Shown in pieces: positions 7,405-56,862 of a stretch of 62,096 bases of DNA. The notes below the pieces were generated by a model. That model was not told the origin of the DNA. It saw only the letters and a program-made list of their open reading frames with translations, and ran no database searches. Origin of the DNA: Acidimicrobiales bacterium. GTDB lineage: Bacteria > Actinomycetota > Acidimicrobiia > Acidimicrobiales > Iamiaceae. The DNA is taken from contig DASZTW010000004.1 of NCBI GenBank assembly GCA_035547835.1, positions 1-62,096 on the forward strand. The letters run 5' to 3'. A program made the translations under genes and the position numbers. Position 1 is the stretch's first letter; the number at the start of each line of letters is the position of its first letter.

Positions 7405-9294
7405 TCAGCTGGCCGCGCCCCCGACGCCAGCGGTGGGGCTGAGGCCCCGCATCCACGTGTCGTACAGCGACGCGTACCGGCCGCCGTGGGCGACCAGTTC
7501 GTCGTGGCTGCCCAGTTCCACCAAGCGGCCCTGGTCGACCACGCCGATCCGATCGGAGCGCGATGCGGTGGTCATGCGGTGGCAGATCACCACGACAGTG
7601 CGACCTTCGGTGAGGCGCTCCATGGCGTCGTCGACCAGCGCCTCGGTGCCGGGGTCGAGGCTCGACGTGGCCTCGTCGAGCACCAGCAGCGGCGGGTTGG
7701 CCAGCGCCGCGCGGGCGAGCGAGACGAGCTGCTTCTCGCCGGCCGACAACCGCGATCCCCGCTCGTGGACCTCGGTGGCCAAGCCCTCCTCCAGCGACGC
7801 GAACCGCTCGTACACCCCGATGGCGCGCAGCGCCTGCACGATCTCCTCGTCGGACGCGTCGGGCTTGGCGATCCGCACGTTGTCGAGGATCGAGCCGCTG
7901 AAGAGGAAGCCTTCCTGCGGCACCACCACGATGTGGTCCCGCAGCGACGCGGCCGACGCCTGACGCAAGTCGACGCCGCCGAAGCGCACGTCACCCTCGG
8001 TCGGGTCGTAGTAACGGGCGATCAGCTTGGCGAGCGTGGACTTGCCGGCGCCGGTGGGCCCCACCAGCGCGAGCTGCTCTCCCTGAGCGATCATGAGGTC
8101 GACGTCCTGCAGGACCGGATCGCCGCCCGCGTAACCGAACGACACGCCACGCACTTCGACGTCGCCCGCCACGGGCAGGTCGACGGGATGCTCGGCTTCG
8201 GGCACGTCGATCGGCGTGTCGAGCAGGTCGAACAGCTTGGTGAGACCCGAGCCCGCGGACTGCACCTGGTTGAAGTACTGGCTGAGCTGCTGGAACGGGT
8301 CGAACAAGTTCGACAGCGACAGCACGAAGAAGGTGACGGTGCCGATGGTGACGGTGCCGTTCACCGTGAGCCACCCGCCGATGCCGATCACCAGCGCGGT
8401 GGTGAGCAGACCCGCGAGCTCGATGACCGGCAAGTACCAGCACGAGATCCACACGGTGTGCATGTACGCGTCGTACAGCCCCCGGTTGCGGCGGCTGAAC
8501 CGCTTGACCGTGGTGTCCTCCTGGGTGAAGGCCTGGATGACCCGCACGCCGCTGATGCCTTCTTGCAACGACGTGAGGGTGACACCGATCCAGTCGCGCA
8601 CCCGCAGGTACGACTTGCTCGAGTCGCGCTGGAACTTGATCGACGCCAGCACCACGACCGGCAGCGGGATCATGCAGATCAGGAACAGCTGCCACGACAC
8701 CACGGCCAACAGCACGACGGCGATCACCATCAGCATCCCGTTGGTGAGCATGAGGACCAGACCCTGCTGCACGAGGTCTTCCATCTGGTCGATGTCGGAC
8801 GTCATCCGTGACACGACGACGCCGGCCTTCTCGCGGTCGTAAAAGGGCATCGACAAGTGCTGGAGGTGGTCGAACACCCGCTCACGCAAGTCGCGCAGGA
8901 AGCCCTCGCCCACGCGGCTGATCATCAGGATCTGCGCCCGCTCGGTCACCCACGAGATGATCGCCACCACGACATACGTTGCGACGGCGATGTTGAGCAC
9001 CCGACCGTTGTCGTGGCTGATGCCGCGGTCGATCGCGATCTTCAACAGGAGCGGGCCGGCGAGGACGGTGAGCGTGTAGACGGCCACCACCCCCATGACC
9101 GCGAAACCGGCCCGGCGATACGGGCGGGCGAGCTTCACGATGCGACCCAGCATCTTCGCGGCGTCGCCACGGCTGAGGCGGTCGGCAGCGTCGTGCTCGG
9201 ACACTGGGGCGTCGGCGACCTCCGGTACGAGCGACCAGCGTCGCCGGGAGCCGCGCGTCGAGGAGCGCTCACGCTCGAAGGGGGGAGGGCTCAC
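7405..9294 (-). CDS. ABC exporter half-transporter with canonical catalytic site (second subunit)
   Basis: A 629-residue type IV ABC exporter subunit with six predicted helices (about 60-330) followed by an ATPase domain. Walker A is GPTGAGKST (412-420), Walker B LLVLDEATSSLD with the catalytic glutamate E541. The signature motif is degenerate: LSAGE (516-520) instead of LSGGQ. The upstream gene has the reciprocal defect, so the two form a heterodimer with one consensus and one degenerate ATP site, as in TM287/288 and BmrCD. An ATGA overlap couples it to that gene. The substrate is unknown; drugs, lipids or peptides are possible. Confidence 0.9.
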   Translation of the reverse strand: MSPPPFERERSSTRGSRRRWSLVPEVADAPVSEHDAADRLSRGDAAKMLGRIVKLARPYRRAGFAVMGVVAVYTLTVLAGPLLLKIAIDRGISHDNGRVLNIAVATYVVVAIISWVTERAQILMISRVGEGFLRDLRERVFDHLQHLSMPFYDREKAGVVVSRMTSDIDQMEDLVQQGLVLMLTNGMLMVIAVVLLAVVSWQLFLICMIPLPVVVLASIKFQRDSSKSYLRVRDWIGVTLTSLQEGISGVRVIQAFTQEDTTVKRFSRRNRGLYDAYMHTVWISCWYLPVIELAGLLTTALVIGIGGWLTVNGTVTIGTVTFFVLSLSNLFDPFQQLSQYFNQVQSAGSGLTKLFDLLDTPIDVPEAEHPVDLPVAGDVEVRGVSFGYAGGDPVLQDVDLMIAQGEQLALVGPTGAGKSTLAKLIARYYDPTEGDVRFGGVDLRQASAASLRDHIVVVPQEGFLFSGSILDNVRIAKPDASDEEIVQALRAIGVYERFASLEEGLATEVHERGSRLSAGEKQLVSLARAALANPPLLVLDEATSSLDPGTEALVDDAMERLTEGRTVVVICHRMTTASRSDRIGVVDQGRLVELGSHDELVAHGGRYASLYDTWMRGLSPTAGVGGAAS

Positions 9295-11063
9295 GAGGCC
9301 ACTTCCTCGGACTCGGGTTGGTACGCGGCCGCCGCGGCCAGCACCTCCCGGTAGCGCTCCGACGTGGTGAGCAGTTCCGCGTGGGTGCCCTGCGCGGCGA
9401 CGCGACCTGCGTCGAGCAGGACCACCCGGTCGGCCAGCGCGATGGTGGCAGGGCGGTGCGCGATCACGATCGTGGTGCGGTTGACCATCACCTCGCCGAG
9501 CGCGTCGCGGATCTCGCGCTCCTTCGACGGATCGACCGCGGACGTGGCGTCGTCGAGGATCAGCACACGAGGGTCGGCCAGGATCGCCCGGGCGATCGCG
9601 ATGCGCTGGCGCTGACCGCCCGACAGCGAGAAGCCGCGCTCACCGATCTCGGTGTCGTAACCCTCGGGCATCGCGGTGATGAAGTCGTGCGCGCCCGCCA
9701 ACTTGGCCGCCTCGACAATGCGCTCCATCGGCGCGTTGGGGTAGGCGAACGCGATGTTTGCTGCGATCGAGTCGCTGAACAGGAACGTGTCCTCGAACAC
9801 GATGCCCACCGCCCGCCGCACCTCGTGCACGGCCGCGTCGCGGACGTCGACACCGTCGAGCAACACCCGGCCCTCGTCGACGTCGTAGAAGCGGGGCAAC
9901 AGCTTGGCGACCGTGGACTTGCCACTGCCGGTCGCGCCCACCAGCGCGACCGACTCGCCTGGCTCGATCCGCAGGTCGAGGTCGTGCAGCACGGGGTCGC
10001 CGTGCCCGAAGCCGAACGTGACGTGGTCGAACTCGATCGCGCCGACTGGTCGCCCGGCGACCGCCGCCGGCAACCCTTTGGGGCGCGCCGGATCGGTGAC
10101 GCGCACGTCGGCCGACAGCACCTCGTCGACCCGCTCGGCGGAGGCAGCCGCCCGCTGTGCCTGGGCGATGATGCTGCCGAGCATGCGCAGCGGCCAGATC
10201 AGCAGCGTGACGTAGAAGTTGAAGGCCACCAGCGCGCCGATGGTGAGGTGGTGGTCCAGCACCCGGTGCCCGCCATACGCCAGCACCAGGATCAGGCCGA
10301 TGCTCGGCAACAAGTCGAGCAACGGCAGGTAGCGGGCACGGATGCGGGCGGTGTCCATCGACGCGTCGTACAAGTCGCCTGCCTCGACCCCGAGCCGCTC
10401 CTGCATGAGCTCCTCGGCGCCGAACCCCTTGACCACCCGCACGCCCGACACGGTCTCCTCGACGACAGCGGCCAGCTCGGCGGACTCTTGCTGGACGGCC
10501 ATCACGGCCGGATGCAGGCGGGTCGAGAAGCGTTTCGCCAGCACGTTCAGCAACGGCAGCGAGCCGACCGCCAGCAACGTGAGGATGACGTCCATGCGCA
10601 GCATCAGCACCACCGCTGCGATGACGGTGGCGAGGTTCGCGCACGTCAGCGGGATCATGACCACGAAGTTCACGATCTGTTGGAGGTCGGTGTTCGAGCG
10701 GCTCATCAGCTGACCGGTCTGCTGGCCGTCGTGGTACGCGAAGTGGAGCTGCTGCAGGTGGCCGAACATGCGCTGGCGGAGCTCGGCTTCGCTCCAACGG
10801 GCTTCGCGGAAGGCGAAGTAACGACGAAGGCCGGTGAACGTGCCCGAAAACAGCCCGGCGATGGCGATGATGATCGCCCACTTCCAGATGGCGTGCGTGT
10901 CCGACTTGCCGATGCCGTGGTCGATCGCCGATTCGACGAGCTTCGGCACCGAGACCTTGGCGGCCGTCCAGATCAGACCCGCAGCGATGCCGAGCGCCAG
11001 CCCACCTCGTTGACGGCGGCACTGGTCACGGAGGAGCCGCCACCCTCTGTTGCGCTGTGCCAC
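9291..11063 (-). CDS. ABC exporter half-transporter with degenerate ATP site (first subunit)
   Basis: A 590-residue transmembrane plus ATPase half-transporter. Walker A is GATGSGKST (376-384) and the signature LSGGQ (480-484) is consensus. In Walker B the catalytic glutamate is aspartate (LILDDATSAVD, D505), and the Q-loop reads IVFEDTFLFS with Glu in place of Gln. This is the non-hydrolytic partner of a heterodimeric exporter. It starts with GTG, with AGGGGG 5 nt upstream. The promoter contains a perfect 16-bp palindrome touching the -10, so the pair is likely under a dedicated repressor. The second subunit follows with a 4-bp overlap. Confidence 0.9.
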   Translation of the reverse strand: MAQRNRGWRLLRDQCRRQRGGLALGIAAGLIWTAAKVSVPKLVESAIDHGIGKSDTHAIWKWAIIIAIAGLFSGTFTGLRRYFAFREARWSEAELRQRMFGHLQQLHFAYHDGQQTGQLMSRSNTDLQQIVNFVVMIPLTCANLATVIAAVVLMLRMDVILTLLAVGSLPLLNVLAKRFSTRLHPAVMAVQQESAELAAVVEETVSGVRVVKGFGAEELMQERLGVEAGDLYDASMDTARIRARYLPLLDLLPSIGLILVLAYGGHRVLDHHLTIGALVAFNFYVTLLIWPLRMLGSIIAQAQRAAASAERVDEVLSADVRVTDPARPKGLPAAVAGRPVGAIEFDHVTFGFGHGDPVLHDLDLRIEPGESVALVGATGSGKSTVAKLLPRFYDVDEGRVLLDGVDVRDAAVHEVRRAVGIVFEDTFLFSDSIAANIAFAYPNAPMERIVEAAKLAGAHDFITAMPEGYDTEIGERGFSLSGGQRQRIAIARAILADPRVLILDDATSAVDPSKEREIRDALGEVMVNRTTIVIAHRPATIALADRVVLLDAGRVAAQGTHAELLTTSERYREVLAAAAAYQPESEEVAS

Positions 11064-47916: not shown

Positions 47917-47962
47917 AGTCGGCCGGTCTCGTCGCGCGAGGGCCTGAGCTCAGGTCGCGGGG

Positions 47963-49498
47963 TCAGTTGACCTGGCGGTCGCGCTCGCCCCAGAACTCCT
48001 TGCGGAGCTTGAACTTCTGGAGCTTGCCGGTGGCGGTGCGGGGCAGCTCGTCCCGGAAGACGACCTTCTTGGGGCACTTGTAACCGGCGAGCTTCGTCTT
48101 GGTGAACTCGATGAGCTCGACCTCTTCGAGGGTGGCGCCGGGGGCGACGACGACCAGCGCGGTCACGAGCTCGCCCCACTTGTCGTCGGGAACCCCGATC
48201 ACGGCCACCTCGGCCACTGCGTCGTGGGAGAAGACCGCGTCCTCGACCTCGATCGACGACACGTTCTCGCCGCCCGAGATGATCACGTCCTTGCGACGGT
48301 CGAGGATGTGCACGTAGCCGTCCTCGTCGACCAGCCCGCCGTCGCCGGTGTGGAACCAACCGTCGCGGATGGCGAGGTCGGTCTGGTCGGGCTGCTGCCA
48401 GTAGCCCTCCATGACGACGTTCGAGCGTGCCAGCACCTCGCCCTTGTCGTCGACCGACATCTGGCACCCGATCGCGGGCGCCCCGGCACGCATGAGCTTG
48501 CGCGCCCGTCCCTCGACCGGCAGCTCGTCCCACTCCGCCCGCGAGCGGTTCATGGTGAGCAGCGGCGCCGTCTCGGTGAGCCCGTAGATCTGGATGAACT
48601 CCCAGCCGAGCTCCGACTCGACCCGTGCGATCGTGCGGCTGGGCGGCGGCGCCCCCGCCACGACGATGCGGGTTCGTCCGTGCCCGGGGATCGGGCCGTC
48701 CCAGGCGCTCGCCGCGTCGAGCACGGCGGCGACCACGGCCGGCGCGGCGCACAGCAGAGTGACCCCGTGCGCGTCGACGCGTCGCAGGATCTCGGCGCCG
48801 TCGATCTTGCGGATCACGACCTGCGTGGCGCCCATGCCGGCGGTGGCGTACAGCATCCCCCAGCCGTTGCAGTGGAACATCGGCAAGGTGTGCAGGTACA
48901 CGTCGCGGTCGGTCACCGTGGCGTGCCAGCCGAACGTGGTGGCGTTGATCCAGCAGTTGCGGTGGGTGAGCTGCACGCCCTTGGGGCGGGCGGTCGTACC
49001 GCTCGTGTAGTTGATGGTCGCCGTCGCGTCCTCGTCGGGCTCCCATGGGCGCGGTTCAGTGTCGTAGTCGTACAGCTCGCCGTCGGCCTCGGCACCCAGC
49101 ACGAACTTCTGCTTGCAGTCCACCGCAGCGAGGGAGTCGGCCAGCTCGGGGTCGACCAGCAGGATCGACGCGCCCGCGTGCTCGACGATGTAGCTGACTT
49201 CCTCGGCCACCAGCCGGAAGTTGATCGGTACCAGGATCCGGCCCCAGCCGGACACGCCCCAGAACGACGTGAGGAGCCGGGCGGAGTTGTGCGACACGAT
49301 CGCCACCCGCTCGCCCTGCGGCACCCCGAGACGGTCGAGCGCGGCGGCCTGCGCCCGTGCCCGCCTGCCCATCTCCTGATACGTGAGCGACCCCCACGAC
49401 TTGGCCGGCTGGTCCGGCTCGTCGACCACGCCCACCCGGTGCGGGTACACGGTCATCGCACGGTCGAGGAAGTCACGAACCGAGAGTGCGACCTTCAT
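47963..49498 (-). CDS. Acyl-CoA synthetase (AMP-dependent ligase)
   Basis: A 511-residue adenylate-forming enzyme that activates a carboxylic acid to its CoA thioester. Motifs: INYTSGTTARPKGVQLTHRN (P-loop), GWEFIQIYGLTETAPL, DGWFHTGDGGLVDEDGYVHILDRRKDVIISGGENVSS, and the C-terminal catalytic lysine in LPRTATGKLQKFKLR. The pattern fits medium/long-chain acyl or aryl-CoA ligases (FadD/alkK-like). AAGGGA lies before the ATG. Confidence 0.92.
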   Translation of the reverse strand: MKVALSVRDFLDRAMTVYPHRVGVVDEPDQPAKSWGSLTYQEMGRRARAQAAALDRLGVPQGERVAIVSHNSARLLTSFWGVSGWGRILVPINFRLVAEEVSYIVEHAGASILLVDPELADSLAAVDCKQKFVLGAEADGELYDYDTEPRPWEPDEDATATINYTSGTTARPKGVQLTHRNCWINATTFGWHATVTDRDVYLHTLPMFHCNGWGMLYATAGMGATQVVIRKIDGAEILRRVDAHGVTLLCAAPAVVAAVLDAASAWDGPIPGHGRTRIVVAGAPPPSRTIARVESELGWEFIQIYGLTETAPLLTMNRSRAEWDELPVEGRARKLMRAGAPAIGCQMSVDDKGEVLARSNVVMEGYWQQPDQTDLAIRDGWFHTGDGGLVDEDGYVHILDRRKDVIISGGENVSSIEVEDAVFSHDAVAEVAVIGVPDDKWGELVTALVVVAPGATLEEVELIEFTKTKLAGYKCPKKVVFRDELPRTATGKLQKFKLRKEFWGERDRQVN

Positions 49499-49697
49499 GG
49501 CAGTTCCCTTCCCCCGGTTCGGCCCGGACGTCGGCCCGGACCGATCGGTCCAGACGGCTTGCCACCGACGGCTGGATGCAGACGGTGACTGAGGTCACGG
49601 TAGCCCCGGTGCCGCGCGCACCGTCGCCGTCGTGCCGCTACCGTCCGCCGGGCCGGCCTTTTGGCCACGAATGGCAGCCTCAGGGGGAGACGAGACG

Positions 49698-51683: not shown

Positions 51684-52805
51684 ATGAGCAGCATGCAACT
51701 CGACTACACGACCGAAGACATCCTCGCCGACCACGCCTTCGCGGAGCCGCTGATCGCAGACGGGATCCGCTGCCACGGCGGGTTCACCGCGGAGGGCGCG
51801 TACGTCTCGCCGCGCACCGCCCATCGAGTCGACGCCATCGCGAACTGGCAGGCGCACCACCGCGACACGTTCGGGACCGACTTGCTCGACCCGCCGCTCG
51901 AGACGTGGCCGGGCCACTACCCGAACCTCCCCCAGGCTCGCTTCCTCCTCGACCACGGCGTGCGGGAGCCGATCGTCGCGATCCTGACGCGCATCGGCAC
52001 GGTCGAAGGCTTCGGCGGCCTGATCCGCACCACGCCGATCCCGAACTGGGAGCGCATCGTCGACGAGGACCTGCGCCACACCGCCACAGCCCACCTCCCC
52101 GCGCTGTACGAAGCCCACGCCCGAGACGAAGCAGGCCACGAGGATGACGCGGGCAACGCTCAGGCGGGCCACAAGCAGATGTGGTTCAGCGCCCGCGACA
52201 TCGCGTTCGAGCACCCCGTGAGCGGCGACCAGACGGCGCTGATGCTGGAGCGGATGGGCATCGCCCCGCCGGGAAGCGGCGGCAAGATCGACCCCGAGCG
52301 GATGCGGGCCGAGGCGCTCGCCAACCGGACCCTGCCCGACGACGTCGACTTCGACCTCGAACAGCTCTTGAACCGCATGATCAGCTTGCTGTTCATCGAG
52401 ATCTCGGCGTTCCACGCGTTCGCGTGGGCCGAAGCGCTGCTCGACGACCCCGAGCGCGTCGCCGGCGACGGCGAAGCCGCACGGATCGTGTCGTACATCC
52501 GCACCGACGAGACCCCACACGTCGGCTACCTGAAGACCTCGCTCACCGAGCTGCGCGACCGCACCTTCATCAGTGACAAGGGCCGCCGGGTGCCCGGCGC
52601 CGAGATCGTGGGGCCGGTGTGGGACCAGCACCTCGCCTCATCGCTCGGCGAGCGGCGCGAAGCCCAGCTCGACGCGGTGTACCGCGAGGTCCAGCACGCG
52701 CTCGAAGGCCGGCGCAACGCTGCCGACCTGCTCGCAGAGTTCGACACGTTGGGCGACACGGCCCGTGGCGCCGACGGCGCCTGGCACTCCGCCGCCGCCA
52801 ACTGA
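51684..52805 (+). CDS. Ferritin-like diiron protein, probable oxygenase
   Basis: A 373-residue helical protein. A complete diiron ligand set can be read in order: E108 (GTVEGFG), E149-x2-H152 (ARDEAGHE), E239 (LFIEISAFH) and E276-x2-H279 (RTDETPHVGYL). These are two E...ExxH halves of a four-helix bundle, as in ribonucleotide reductase R2, AurF-type N-oxygenases and fatty-acid desaturases. I cannot assign a substrate. The operator and SD layout at its promoter match those of the ABC exporter, suggesting one regulon. An MFS carrier gene converges with it. Confidence 0.72.
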   Translation: MSSMQLDYTTEDILADHAFAEPLIADGIRCHGGFTAEGAYVSPRTAHRVDAIANWQAHHRDTFGTDLLDPPLETWPGHYPNLPQARFLLDHGVREPIVAILTRIGTVEGFGGLIRTTPIPNWERIVDEDLRHTATAHLPALYEAHARDEAGHEDDAGNAQAGHKQMWFSARDIAFEHPVSGDQTALMLERMGIAPPGSGGKIDPERMRAEALANRTLPDDVDFDLEQLLNRMISLLFIEISAFHAFAWAEALLDDPERVAGDGEAARIVSYIRTDETPHVGYLKTSLTELRDRTFISDKGRRVPGAEIVGPVWDQHLASSLGERREAQLDAVYREVQHALEGRRNAADLLAEFDTLGDTARGADGAWHSAAAN

Positions 52806-54304: not shown

Positions 54305-56674
54305 GTGGACGAACCGGACGAGACGTCGACCGCACCTGCTCGCCGGTCCACGATCGGGCGCTCGACGGGACGCGCCGAGCTTCCCGGCCGCCCGCACGCC
54401 GTGCCCGATCCCGTCCCCGACCCCGACCACGTCGAGCGCCAAGCCCTGCTCAAGGCGCAACGAGGCGACAACCGGTCGTTCGCTCGCCTGATCCGCACCC
54501 ACGATCCCGCCCTGCGAACCGTCGCCACGTTCCTCGTCGGCACCGAGTCGGTCGACACCGTGTTGCACGACGCCTACGTGCGTGCCTACCGCGCACTGCC
54601 CCGCTACAAGGGCGACCTCGCGCCCCGCCTTTGGCTCACGCGGCCAGTCGTGTCGGTGGCGCTCGACCTGCTCCGCAAACGCCACCGGCCCCGCCCGCGC
54701 CGAGCCGGCGCGGTCCGGTCGCCCGCCGAGACGCCGCCGCCCGCCGCGTCGCGCGCCGACGAGGTGCCCCAGCCCGACCCGGCCAGCGGGGTGCGGATCC
54801 TTGCCGGCGACACCGCCAGCCCGGGCCGCGCGGTGGACGACGAACCGGCTGCCGACCCCAGGTCGCCAGCACCCAGCAGCGCCGCCAGCACCCGAGCGCC
54901 CGAGCTCGGCGCAACGCCCGAACGGGACAGCGCCCTGTCACGCCTGCACCGCGCGTTCGACGAACTGCTGCTCGAGGACCGCATCGCACTGACCCTGGTC
55001 GACGTCGCCGAACTGACGGTGGCCGAGGCGGCAGCGACGGTCGAAGTCGAGCAACCCACGATGGCGACTCGGCTGGGCCGCGCCCGCGGGAGCGTCCGAC
55101 GCACGTTGAACGAACTGGCGGACTCTGGTGCATCCAAGGTGTGGACTCCCCCGCCCATGCCCGACCCCGACGACCTCGACGCCTGGTTCGACCTCCAGCC
55201 GGTCGAGGACCACGGGGCCGAGTTCTGGCCGTCCGTCGGCGCCAAGCTGCTCGACGCCAAGTACCGCCCGGCCGCCAGCGGTCCCGAACCGCGGACCGTC
55301 GGCGGCGTGCGCACCAAGCGAGGTCCCGACGACGGCACGACACCGGGCGCCGGCAAAGCGACGGTGAAAGTCGCCACCAAGGCCGACGACCGGACGATCG
55401 GAACCCTGGCCCGACAGGCGCGCCACGGACGCGGCCGGTCGTGGGGTTGGCTGCGCCAGCTCGTGGTGGTCGCGGTTGGCGTCGGTGCAGCCGTCGGCTT
55501 GATCTTCGCCGGTTTCGCGATCTCCAACCGGGTGAGCCACCGCGACGCCCAACTCGGCACCACCGCAGGCAAGATCATCGCCAGGGTGAACGACGCCATG
55601 TCGACCGACCAGGTGATCTCCGGCGCCGTGACGGTGGACAGCGGCGGGTCGCCGGTGGCGCCCGGCACGTACGAGTTCGTCCGCAGCCCCGACGGTTCGT
55701 ACAAGATCGCCAAGGACGGCGGCGGGTGGACCGAGGCCTACGACAACGCCACCGGCACGTTCACCCAAGCCACCTTCGCAGCCAACGGCGCCCCGATCAC
55801 CCGGCGGGTCGAGACCGGTGTGGCCCCCGGACCGCCCGACCCCTCGGCCACGACCGGCTCGCAGCTCGGCGACCCGTTGGTGGGCGTGATCCAGCTGCTG
55901 GCGCAGGGCTCGAACACCCAACTCACCACGCTCGGCAACAACGGCGCGCCGCAGTACGTGATCGACAGCGATCTGCCGTTGAGCGGTGGCCGCGCGAGCG
56001 GCGCCGACTTGTTCGCCGGCATCGGCGCGTTCAGCCGAACGGCGGCAGCCGACCACGTGCGCGTGCTCATCGACCAGTCGCTCGAGCTGCCGACCGACGT
56101 CCAGCTCACGCGCGACCAGGGGTCGGTGATGCACCTCCGCTTCGCGGACCTGGCGGTCGGCAACAGCGCCGGCTCGGGCCAGTTCACCGTCGCCGCGCCA
56201 GACGGGGCCACGACGACCTCACGGGGCTACGAGGTGGTGCCGCTCAACGGGGTGACGAGCGCGGTCGGCTACGACCCGGCCAAACCGTCGTACCTGCCCG
56301 GCGGGTTCACACTGTCGTCGGTGGCCGTGCAACCAGAGTCGCCTGCCGGCTCGACGAGCACCGCGGGCGGCCGCAACCCACCCAACAGCGCGGTCGTGGT
56401 GCTCGTCTACCGCCACGGCGGCGACACGATCGTGGTGACCACCCGGCGCACGACCTCGGCCGCCGGCAAGTTCTGGCTCGACCCGCTCGCCACCACCGGC
56501 GACGGCGCCACCCACTCGGTGGACGTGACCGCCGGGCGGTTGCTCGAGGCCGGCGCCCGGGGGAGCGACCGGCCGGTGCCGCATCTGTGGGCACGCGACC
56601 GCGACCTCGTCTACACCGTGACCGGGACCGTGTCGCTGAGCCAGCTCACCAAAGTCGCGTCGTCGCTGCAGTGA
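54305..56674 (+). CDS. Membrane-tethered ECF sigma-like protein with LolA/DUF4367-like ectodomain
   Basis: A 789-residue multidomain protein. Residues about 45-128 resemble sigma region 2 (AQRGDNRSFARLIRTHDPAL, AYVRAYRALPRYKG). An Ala/Pro linker leads to sigma region 4 at about 208-275 (LSRLHRAFDELLLEDRIAL, EVEQPTMATRLGRARGSVRR). One membrane helix at about 384-408 (LVVVAVGVGAAVGLIFAGF) is followed by an outside part. The first section, KIIARVNDAMSTDQVISGAV onward, looks like a LolA/RseB fold. The C-terminus (YLPGGFTLSSVAV, VLVYRHGGDTIVVTT, RDLVYTVTGTVSLSQLTKVASSL) matches DUF4367. Sigma factor and envelope sensor are thus in one chain. GTG at 54305 is a best guess for the start; no SD is clear. 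Confidence 0.75.
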   Translation: MDEPDETSTAPARRSTIGRSTGRAELPGRPHAVPDPVPDPDHVERQALLKAQRGDNRSFARLIRTHDPALRTVATFLVGTESVDTVLHDAYVRAYRALPRYKGDLAPRLWLTRPVVSVALDLLRKRHRPRPRRAGAVRSPAETPPPAASRADEVPQPDPASGVRILAGDTASPGRAVDDEPAADPRSPAPSSAASTRAPELGATPERDSALSRLHRAFDELLLEDRIALTLVDVAELTVAEAAATVEVEQPTMATRLGRARGSVRRTLNELADSGASKVWTPPPMPDPDDLDAWFDLQPVEDHGAEFWPSVGAKLLDAKYRPAASGPEPRTVGGVRTKRGPDDGTTPGAGKATVKVATKADDRTIGTLARQARHGRGRSWGWLRQLVVVAVGVGAAVGLIFAGFAISNRVSHRDAQLGTTAGKIIARVNDAMSTDQVISGAVTVDSGGSPVAPGTYEFVRSPDGSYKIAKDGGGWTEAYDNATGTFTQATFAANGAPITRRVETGVAPGPPDPSATTGSQLGDPLVGVIQLLAQGSNTQLTTLGNNGAPQYVIDSDLPLSGGRASGADLFAGIGAFSRTAAADHVRVLIDQSLELPTDVQLTRDQGSVMHLRFADLAVGNSAGSGQFTVAAPDGATTTSRGYEVVPLNGVTSAVGYDPAKPSYLPGGFTLSSVAVQPESPAGSTSTAGGRNPPNSAVVVLVYRHGGDTIVVTTRRTTSAAGKFWLDPLATTGDGATHSVDVTAGRLLEAGARGSDRPVPHLWARDRDLVYTVTGTVSLSQLTKVASSLQ

Positions 56675-56777
56675 GGTGCCGCCGGGTCGCCCGCAGGTCG
56701 GGCCACCGGCGGTCGTGACCAGAGGCAGATCGGCGCAACGCGGCCGCAGCTCGTCGGCAGGCAGCGCGCCGGCGATG

Positions 56778-56862
56778 TGCCCGGGGTGGGAGTCGAACCC
56801 ACATGGCCCGTGAGGACCCGCGGGGTTTAAGCCCGCTGCGTATGCCATTCCGCCACCCGGGC
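56778..56862 (-). tRNA. tRNA-Leu (anticodon UAA)
   Basis: The 85-nt class II tRNA reads GCCCGGGTGGCGGAATGGC at its 5' end. The anticodon arm is GCGGG-CTTAAAC-CCCGC, anticodon TAA. It has a long variable arm (GGTCCTCACGGGCC), the T-arm GTGGGTTCGACTCCCAC and the acceptor CCCGGGC plus discriminator A. CCA is not encoded. It reads UUA codons, which are rare in a genome this GC-rich. Confidence 0.95.

Follow-up and report, generated by a model that had tools for sequence, protein, structure and literature searches.

The gene at 54305..56674 (+) raises the question of whether a sigma factor, a membrane anchor and an envelope sensor can reside on one chain and, if so, whether the sigma part of such a protein could still direct transcription. 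The gene lies in a 62,096-nucleotide stretch of Acidimicrobiales DNA, the whole of which is referred to here as the window. It consists of a single open frame running from a GTG start to a stop codon and encodes 789 aa; GC content by codon position is 0.72/0.57/0.90, with a strong third position, and relatives were found by a search of the family. Sigma region 2 (a putative pseudo-sigma-2; residues 40-132, 54422..54700 (+)) contains a Pfam Sigma70_r2 match at residues 62-128 (E 1.8e-6, above the cut-off). Sigma region 4 (residues 205-275, 54917..55129 (+)), in which the recognition motif is degenerate, matches Sigma70_r4_2 just below the cut-off (residues 213-261, E 1.8e-5, 24.7 vs 25.7 bits). 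These are connected by a long linker (residues 133-204, 54701..54916 (+)) that is probably disordered. When 15 aligned members were scanned at E<=1, Sigma70_r2 was found in 11, Sigma70_r4_2 in 9 and DUF4367 in 5, while the best NCBIfam matches were ECF sigma factors such as SigM, far under the respective cut-offs (71.7 vs 190 bits). The sigma part is followed by an anti-sigma-like helix with an FW motif (residues 301-325, 55205..55279 (+)) and by a single membrane helix (residues 386-406, 55460..55522 (+)), assigned on the basis of a hydrophobic stretch that begins at residue 386. The outer part comprises a LolA-like domain resembling the N-terminal domain of RseB/MucB (residues 418-640, 55556..56224 (+)) and a DUF4367-like domain that is probably similar to the RseB/MucB C-terminal domain (residues 641-789, 56225..56671 (+)).

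The full-length protein was modelled using AlphaFold2 (mean pLDDT 75.2, pTM 0.54). A sigma fold had been anticipated for the N-terminal region, and it is indeed predicted with confidence: the sigma-2 (pLDDT ~95) and sigma-4 (~96) segments form helical bundles, with PDB matches of the former to ECF sigma-2 structures, and the intervening linker falls below 50 at residues 132-202. A helix at 307-320 (pLDDT ~91) coincides with the anti-sigma-like segment, a long helix at 382-418 contains the hydrophobic stretch, and the ectodomain is rich in β-structure. The sigma part can be superposed on SigW as found in the SigW-RsiW complex with a Z of 17.8 and an rmsd of 2.0 over 155 residues, but its fit to RNAP-bound sigmaE is poor (rmsd 27, 169 residues). 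SigG1, for which no anti-sigma is listed (7qh5; Z 14.6, rmsd 4.3), can likewise be aligned to the model, and the sigmaE of the RseA complex (1or7) aligns over sigma-2 only. A closed, SigW-RsiW-like arrangement of the sigma part is thus predicted, which is suggestive only. Many solved ECF sigma structures are complexes with an anti-sigma, and the compact arrangement may therefore reflect an AlphaFold default.

For the ectodomain folded alone (25 alignment rows; mean pLDDT 83.2, pTM 0.86), Foldseek lists RseB or MucB chains in its top 14 rows (E 3.1e-13 to 6.3e-9, 375-388 columns), ahead of LolA-type proteins that cover the first ectodomain domain, with low TM-scores to RseB (TMt 0.39-0.49). Alignment by VIA-align to RseB (2p4b) gave a Z of 13.2 with 261 residues aligned across a span of 8-377 and an rmsd of 8.5, scoring below the LolA-type 4mxt (Z 17.2, rmsd 2.8, 181 residues). 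The RseB rows as a group reach residue 377 with 243-261 residues aligned (rmsd 8.5-8.8), with residues beyond 230 barely tested, and whole-ectodomain RseB alignments end at residue 789 in the full model and 377 in the ectodomain model. A sequence search of the PDB with the ectodomain profile returned weak matches only, to designed proteins and a polyketide synthase, and not RseB, meaning that the relation to RseB is one of fold. The Pfam RseB/MucB profiles did not match the window protein (E<=10) and were absent from the families listed for the 15 members at E<=1. The ectodomain had been read as a LolA-like domain combined with a DUF4367-like domain. Taken together the best fold matches for the pair are RseB and MucB, and the models firmly place the first domain as RseB/LolA-like; the second is less secure, and is likely to correspond to the RseB C-terminal domain set at another angle. 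Comparison with DUF4367 (PF14285) was divided: for the window protein Pfam gave no match at E<=10, and the family is represented only in the five members noted above. According to PMC7400510, the MucB N-terminal domain binds lipid while the main binding helix of the anti-sigma meets the C-terminal domain. The central proposal of the original prediction, that sigma, membrane anchor and RseB-like sensor occupy one chain, is therefore borne out by Pfam, AlphaFold2 and Foldseek.

We found the fusion in 18 of the 24 searched genomes of the family, distributed over nine genus groups (family-wide search and follow-up; G000, G001, G002, G004, G005, G009, G012 and G013-G023), so that the architecture does recur in relatives. 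The carriers' family is by inference Iamiaceae of the Acidimicrobiales, and NCBI places Aquihabitans in this family and order. The six non-carriers (G003, G006, G007, G008, G010 and G011) all belong to one genus group, which includes Aquihabitans sp. G128 (G002). Two of the 18 carriers counted are incomplete. The G021 copy is cut by a contig end, while in G002 (L045:7957-10790 (-)) the two halves lie in different frames, with the break between sigma-4 and the FW helix; its ectodomain open frame measures 568 aa in two analyses and 1044 aa in one listing, and the break could be a sequencing error or a real split. Among the matches listed for a full-length profile run over 298 genomes of the order (12 from the family), end-to-end matches occurred in the family only. 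The ectodomain profile was searched against three overlapping sets of 397 (order), 395 (class) and 396 (phylum) genomes, and these searches scored 3-4 candidates per genome. Outside the family it identified split or stand-alone genes in the loci read, matches in G154, G611 and G683 being left out. A candidate second fused paralogue in the window's own genome, a sigma match within a 784-residue frame on G000:C17, proved to be an ordinary ECF sigma ending a longer open frame and was rejected.

Among the split loci, a canonical-motif ECF sigma gene lies directly upstream of an anti-sigma/RseB-like gene in G285, G565, G549, G771 and G220. At the chosen starts, the sigma stop overlaps the anti-sigma start in the first four, and the genes are adjacent in G220; G821 has the same sigma to anti-sigma order with broken frames. 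The short helix FW..LGRRLLAER between sigma-4 and the membrane is common to the fused proteins and the separate anti-sigma genes, and across 21 rows, 5 of them from separate anti-sigma genes, F307 and L315 do not vary. Two more distant separate anti-sigmas show zinc-finger features, with a zf-HC2 match (E 8.5e-7) in G708 and a readable HxxxCxxC stretch in G702. Ectodomain-type genes without an adjacent sigma match in the retrieved sequence were also found in G420, G408, G601, G721 and G762, as well as in G559 and G674 on short contigs. One split-type locus (L085, G284:C24, ~7789-9899 (-)) joins the beginning of a sigma to the ectodomain in a single frame but lacks the part in between, which may be an assembly collapse.

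The existence of split homologues was originally put forward as a sign that the join might be a sequencing fusion, and an assembly or annotation artefact joining two genes could draw on these homologues and on the differing frames in G002. Such homologues do exist in other families, but as two-gene loci, and recurrence of the join in most of the family genomes and in nine genus groups speaks against an artefact; the combination indicates that the join is evolutionary, and we leave an artefact a negligible chance. Given the adjacent or overlapping sigma and anti-sigma genes of other families, the fused gene appears to have arisen in situ from such a pair, with its parts in the order sigmaE–RseA–RseB. 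In the ectodomain tree, 17 fused rows fall on one side of a branch (support 79/85, not starred). In a quick sigma tree the fused sigmas group beside the partners of G285, G220, G565 and G549 (SH-aLRT 82), with the G771 sigma outside; the fused group also takes in two long-branch rows, L131 and L150, which lie next to similar anti-sigmas of their own. The simplest reading is that a cognate sigma/anti-sigma pair fused in place, possibly but not necessarily in a single event. Sequence, predicted fold and split homologues together support a fusion within Iamiaceae or their ancestry, so that counterparts of sigmaE, RseA and RseB follow one another on one chain as they do in the operon.

That operon order, rpoE-rseA-rseB-rseC, is given in PMC4336711. 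The fused protein has the same kinds of parts in the same order as RpoE-RseA-RseB and AlgU-MucA-MucB, namely an ECF sigma, an anti-sigma helix with a membrane helix and an RseB-like sensor. It differs from these systems in being one polypeptide instead of three and in having lost sigma contact residues, and from RseB/MucB themselves in the apparent domain angle of its outer part (rmsd 8.5) and in lacking a Pfam RseB/MucB match at E<=10. Fused membrane-bound ECF proteins were already taken to be known, and this holds: sigma/anti-sigma fusions are described for ECF48, ECF52, ECF53, some ECF36 and IutY/ECF243 in PMC8999054. As in the fused protein, sigma, anti-sigma part and membrane helix lie on one chain in ECF48, ECF52 (SCO4117), ECF53 and IutY (ECF243), as described in PMC8999054 and PMC5826349. 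Unlike ECF48, ECF52 and ECF53, the fused protein has no zinc-finger anti-sigma domain, the HxxxCxxC motif being present in 0/15 aligned copies and the window protein containing no Cys at all. Where SCO4117 carries a carbohydrate-binding domain, the fused protein has an RseB-like outer part, and its degenerate sigma part may be a further difference from ECF48/52/53 and IutY.

To what extent the sigma part could still function was assessed by comparing the fused copies with nine sigmas: five split partners, two partners of the more distant anti-sigmas (G708 and G702) and two sigmas of the window's own genome. The region 2.2 Asp is present in 1/15 aligned fused copies against 9/9 comparison sigmas, and the region 2.2 Gln in 0/15 against 9/9, although in the fused row L043 the preceding position is a Gln. 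Including G002, G021 and G016 (the last read by eye), which have neither residue, the totals over all 18 fused copies are 0/18 for Gln and 1/18 for Asp. The Asp position is occupied by Arg in 8 aligned fused copies (8/14 relatives of the window copy), and the window copy has S and T at the acidic motif (SVDT). The T of GTWL is found in 0/15 fused copies against 5/5 split partners (7/9 of all comparison rows), and the same figures apply to both the region-4 G and the region-4 S (each 0/15 vs 5/5, and 7/9 overall). The region-4 T is retained in 4/15 fused copies, the window copy among them, and the recognition motif as a whole differs between genera. The role of the region 2.2 Gln is known from sigma70 work.

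As a background to these losses, among 41 usable non-fused sigmas in the fetched loci, a profile scan found the Asp in 39 and the Gln in 36, with both missing in 2 (45 rows lay outside the aligned fused set, of which the G002 and G021 fused copies and 2 gapped rows were left out). The window's own genome contains 21 region-2 matches, with that of the fused gene ranking 20th by score. Its 13 other aligned sigmas have the Asp in 12 (one Glu) and the Gln in 11 (2 without), with none lacking both; 7 of the 21 matches are unaligned. Judged from these alignments, the core-RNAP contact motif of region 2.2 and the promoter-contact residues are decayed across the family. The degeneracy of region 2 at the -10 binding helix had been recognised previously, correctly, and the loss extends further, to the core-RNAP contact motif and to region 4. 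The acidic motif of region 2.2 is identified as a core RNAP contact in PMC8103513, where some working ECF sigmas are also reported to lack it and to regain the charge by phosphorylation.

The original prediction envisaged a sigma part held at the membrane until its release, which now appears doubtful given the family-wide loss of RNAP- and promoter-contact residues. In its fullest form, such a membrane-tethered working sigma would sense envelope damage, be cut by site-1 and site-2 proteases and be freed for transcription. One-chain sigma/anti-sigma precedents lend this model some weight, as proteolytic release is proposed for ECF52 and reported for IutY in PMC8999054, and the sigma-2 and sigma-4 folds are predicted to be intact. 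Against this, core- and promoter-contact residues are missing in nearly all copies, with the frequent Asp to Arg replacement and a region-4 motif that varies between genera.

A possible site-1 protease was identified in the form of a divergent, extracytoplasmic HExxH-type gene (the HELTHALDDQ type, L043:10048-11445 (+), with relatives L154-L162 and L052). It occurs within ~1.4 kb of the fused gene in 10/18 carriers (G013-G021 and G023), possibly with an intervening gene. One membrane helix is visible by eye, and two of the three proteins scanned gave a weak match to DUF6782 (putative metallopeptidase) below the cut-off. The motif is intact in 7 and has decayed in G018, G019 and G021; the window's own genome gave no match to this neighbour at E<=1e-5. 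While not universal, the HExxH neighbour could be a partner or a protease of the fused protein. On balance, we regard proteolytic release of a working sigma as a minority prospect. A second HExxH type (HELTHVLQDQHFDL and variants) was observed at 13 Iamiaceae loci away from the fused gene (L163-L171 and L174-L177).

Membrane-bound one-component regulators such as ToxR and CadC suggest another possibility, in which sigma-4 would no longer act as part of a sigma but as a helix-turn-helix that binds DNA from the membrane. Region 4 retains its helical fold, and the window protein has a weak Crp-type HTH match (E 0.001, below the cut-off, Pfam). However, the G and S of the recognition motif are lost in 15/15 copies, the motif is not constant between genera, and sigma-4 is less conserved than sigma-2, making this reading quite improbable.

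Conservation was compared by domain as mean pairwise identity within two genera (g2, 5 rows; g3, 3 rows) and over all 15 members. The respective values are 0.75, 0.74 and 0.46 for sigma-2; 0.28, 0.56 and 0.25 for the sigma linker; 0.53, 0.46 and 0.33 for sigma-4; 0.71, 0.67 and 0.56 for the anti-sigma helix; 0.42, 0.54 and 0.29 for the LolA-like domain; and 0.59, 0.62 and 0.41 for the DUF4367-like domain. Sigma-2 is thus the best conserved domain within both genera, with the anti-sigma helix ahead of it over all 15. These values bear on the notion that only the RseB-like sensor matters and that the sigma half is a decaying relic. The lost contact residues would be expected of a relic, but sigma-2 is the part best kept within each genus and its fold is confidently predicted, and we consider a vestigial sigma half very improbable. 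That sigma-2 is disarmed yet well kept argues for a new role, although its conservation could reflect folding alone. Positions conserved in the fused copies only include 60, 64, 67, 71, 84, 87, 90 and 91 on the 2.1/2.2 helices; others lie in 2.3/2.4 and region 4 (e.g. 113, 116, 117, 122 and 227), so no single surface is picked out, and as a sign of a 2.1/2.2 surface these positions are suggestive at most. In class I anti-sigmas, helix 4 covers the 2.1/2.2 surface that binds the RNAP clamp, according to PMC7406223.

The alternative offered alongside release, that the protein might sequester or modulate another sigma system, fits better than release of a working sigma in view of the residue loss. 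We favour, as roughly an even call and above proteolytic release, a repurposed and locked pseudo-sigma receptor acting through a partner. A neighbouring ECF sigma gene and a membrane anti-sigma gene with an RseB-like outer part would have become one polypeptide, and in the cytoplasm the sigma-2/sigma-4 pair would, as the model suggests, lie against the anti-sigma helix in cis. We propose that the RNAP-clamp and promoter-DNA contacts decayed because this lock was permanent, while the sigma-2 fold was kept under constraint. The RseB-like part may meet a lipid or envelope-damage signal and, through the single membrane helix, alter the presentation of the repurposed sigma-2 surface to its partner, possibly an RNAP-associated factor or an additional anti-sigma. 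Counting against this reading are the working ECF sigmas that do without the acidic motif and the few other sigmas, in the own genome and in the background set, that lack the Gln or both region 2.2 residues. The analysis also turned up no partner, signal or regulon for the fused protein; the upstream sequences of the fused genes were listed, and no shared promoter motif is claimed.

A related reading takes PhyR as its guide, an anti-anti-sigma whose sigma-like domain has a degenerate ECF sigma fold and has ceased to direct transcription (PMC8103513). The fused protein shares a degenerate sigma fold with PhyR: the Pfam PhyR_sigma-like family was matched in 3/15 members at E<=1, and the model can be aligned with chains of PhyR (4qic, Z 12.4; 9cb6, Z 11.2). 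In contrast to PhyR, the fused protein is membrane-anchored with an outer sensor, and no receiver family appeared in the Pfam scans of the window protein and the 15 members. The protein would then be a membrane-borne sigma mimic, an envelope receptor whose pseudo-sigma output binds or lets go of an anti-sigma belonging to a different ECF pathway, amounting to a membrane version of PhyR made by fusing and then disarming a pair. We rate this specific form as rather unlikely.

The fused gene is an example of an envelope stress switch, ordinarily built from two or three proteins, condensed into a single chain, while relatives still display the arrangement as two genes. Its sigma fold remains constrained although core- and promoter-contact residues are gone, which offers a testable case of how a transcription factor becomes a component of signalling, and members of this family may be wrongly annotated as RNA polymerase sigma factors. 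As far as searches of the open-licence PMC literature go, no description of an RseB-bearing one-chain sigma protein was found, and three features appear to be new, namely an ectodomain resembling RseB, recognisable split relatives and a sigma part disarmed throughout the family; a group for the protein may exist in the 2021 ECF reclassification.

The surroundings of the fused gene in the window were also inspected. A tRNA-Leu (taa) gene lies directly downstream on the opposite strand, at 56777-56862 (-). Two genes upstream (51684-52805 and 47948-49588 (+), 373 and 546 aa) have no Pfam match at 1e-5, and the stretch that carries them contains gene clusters common to several loci of the family.
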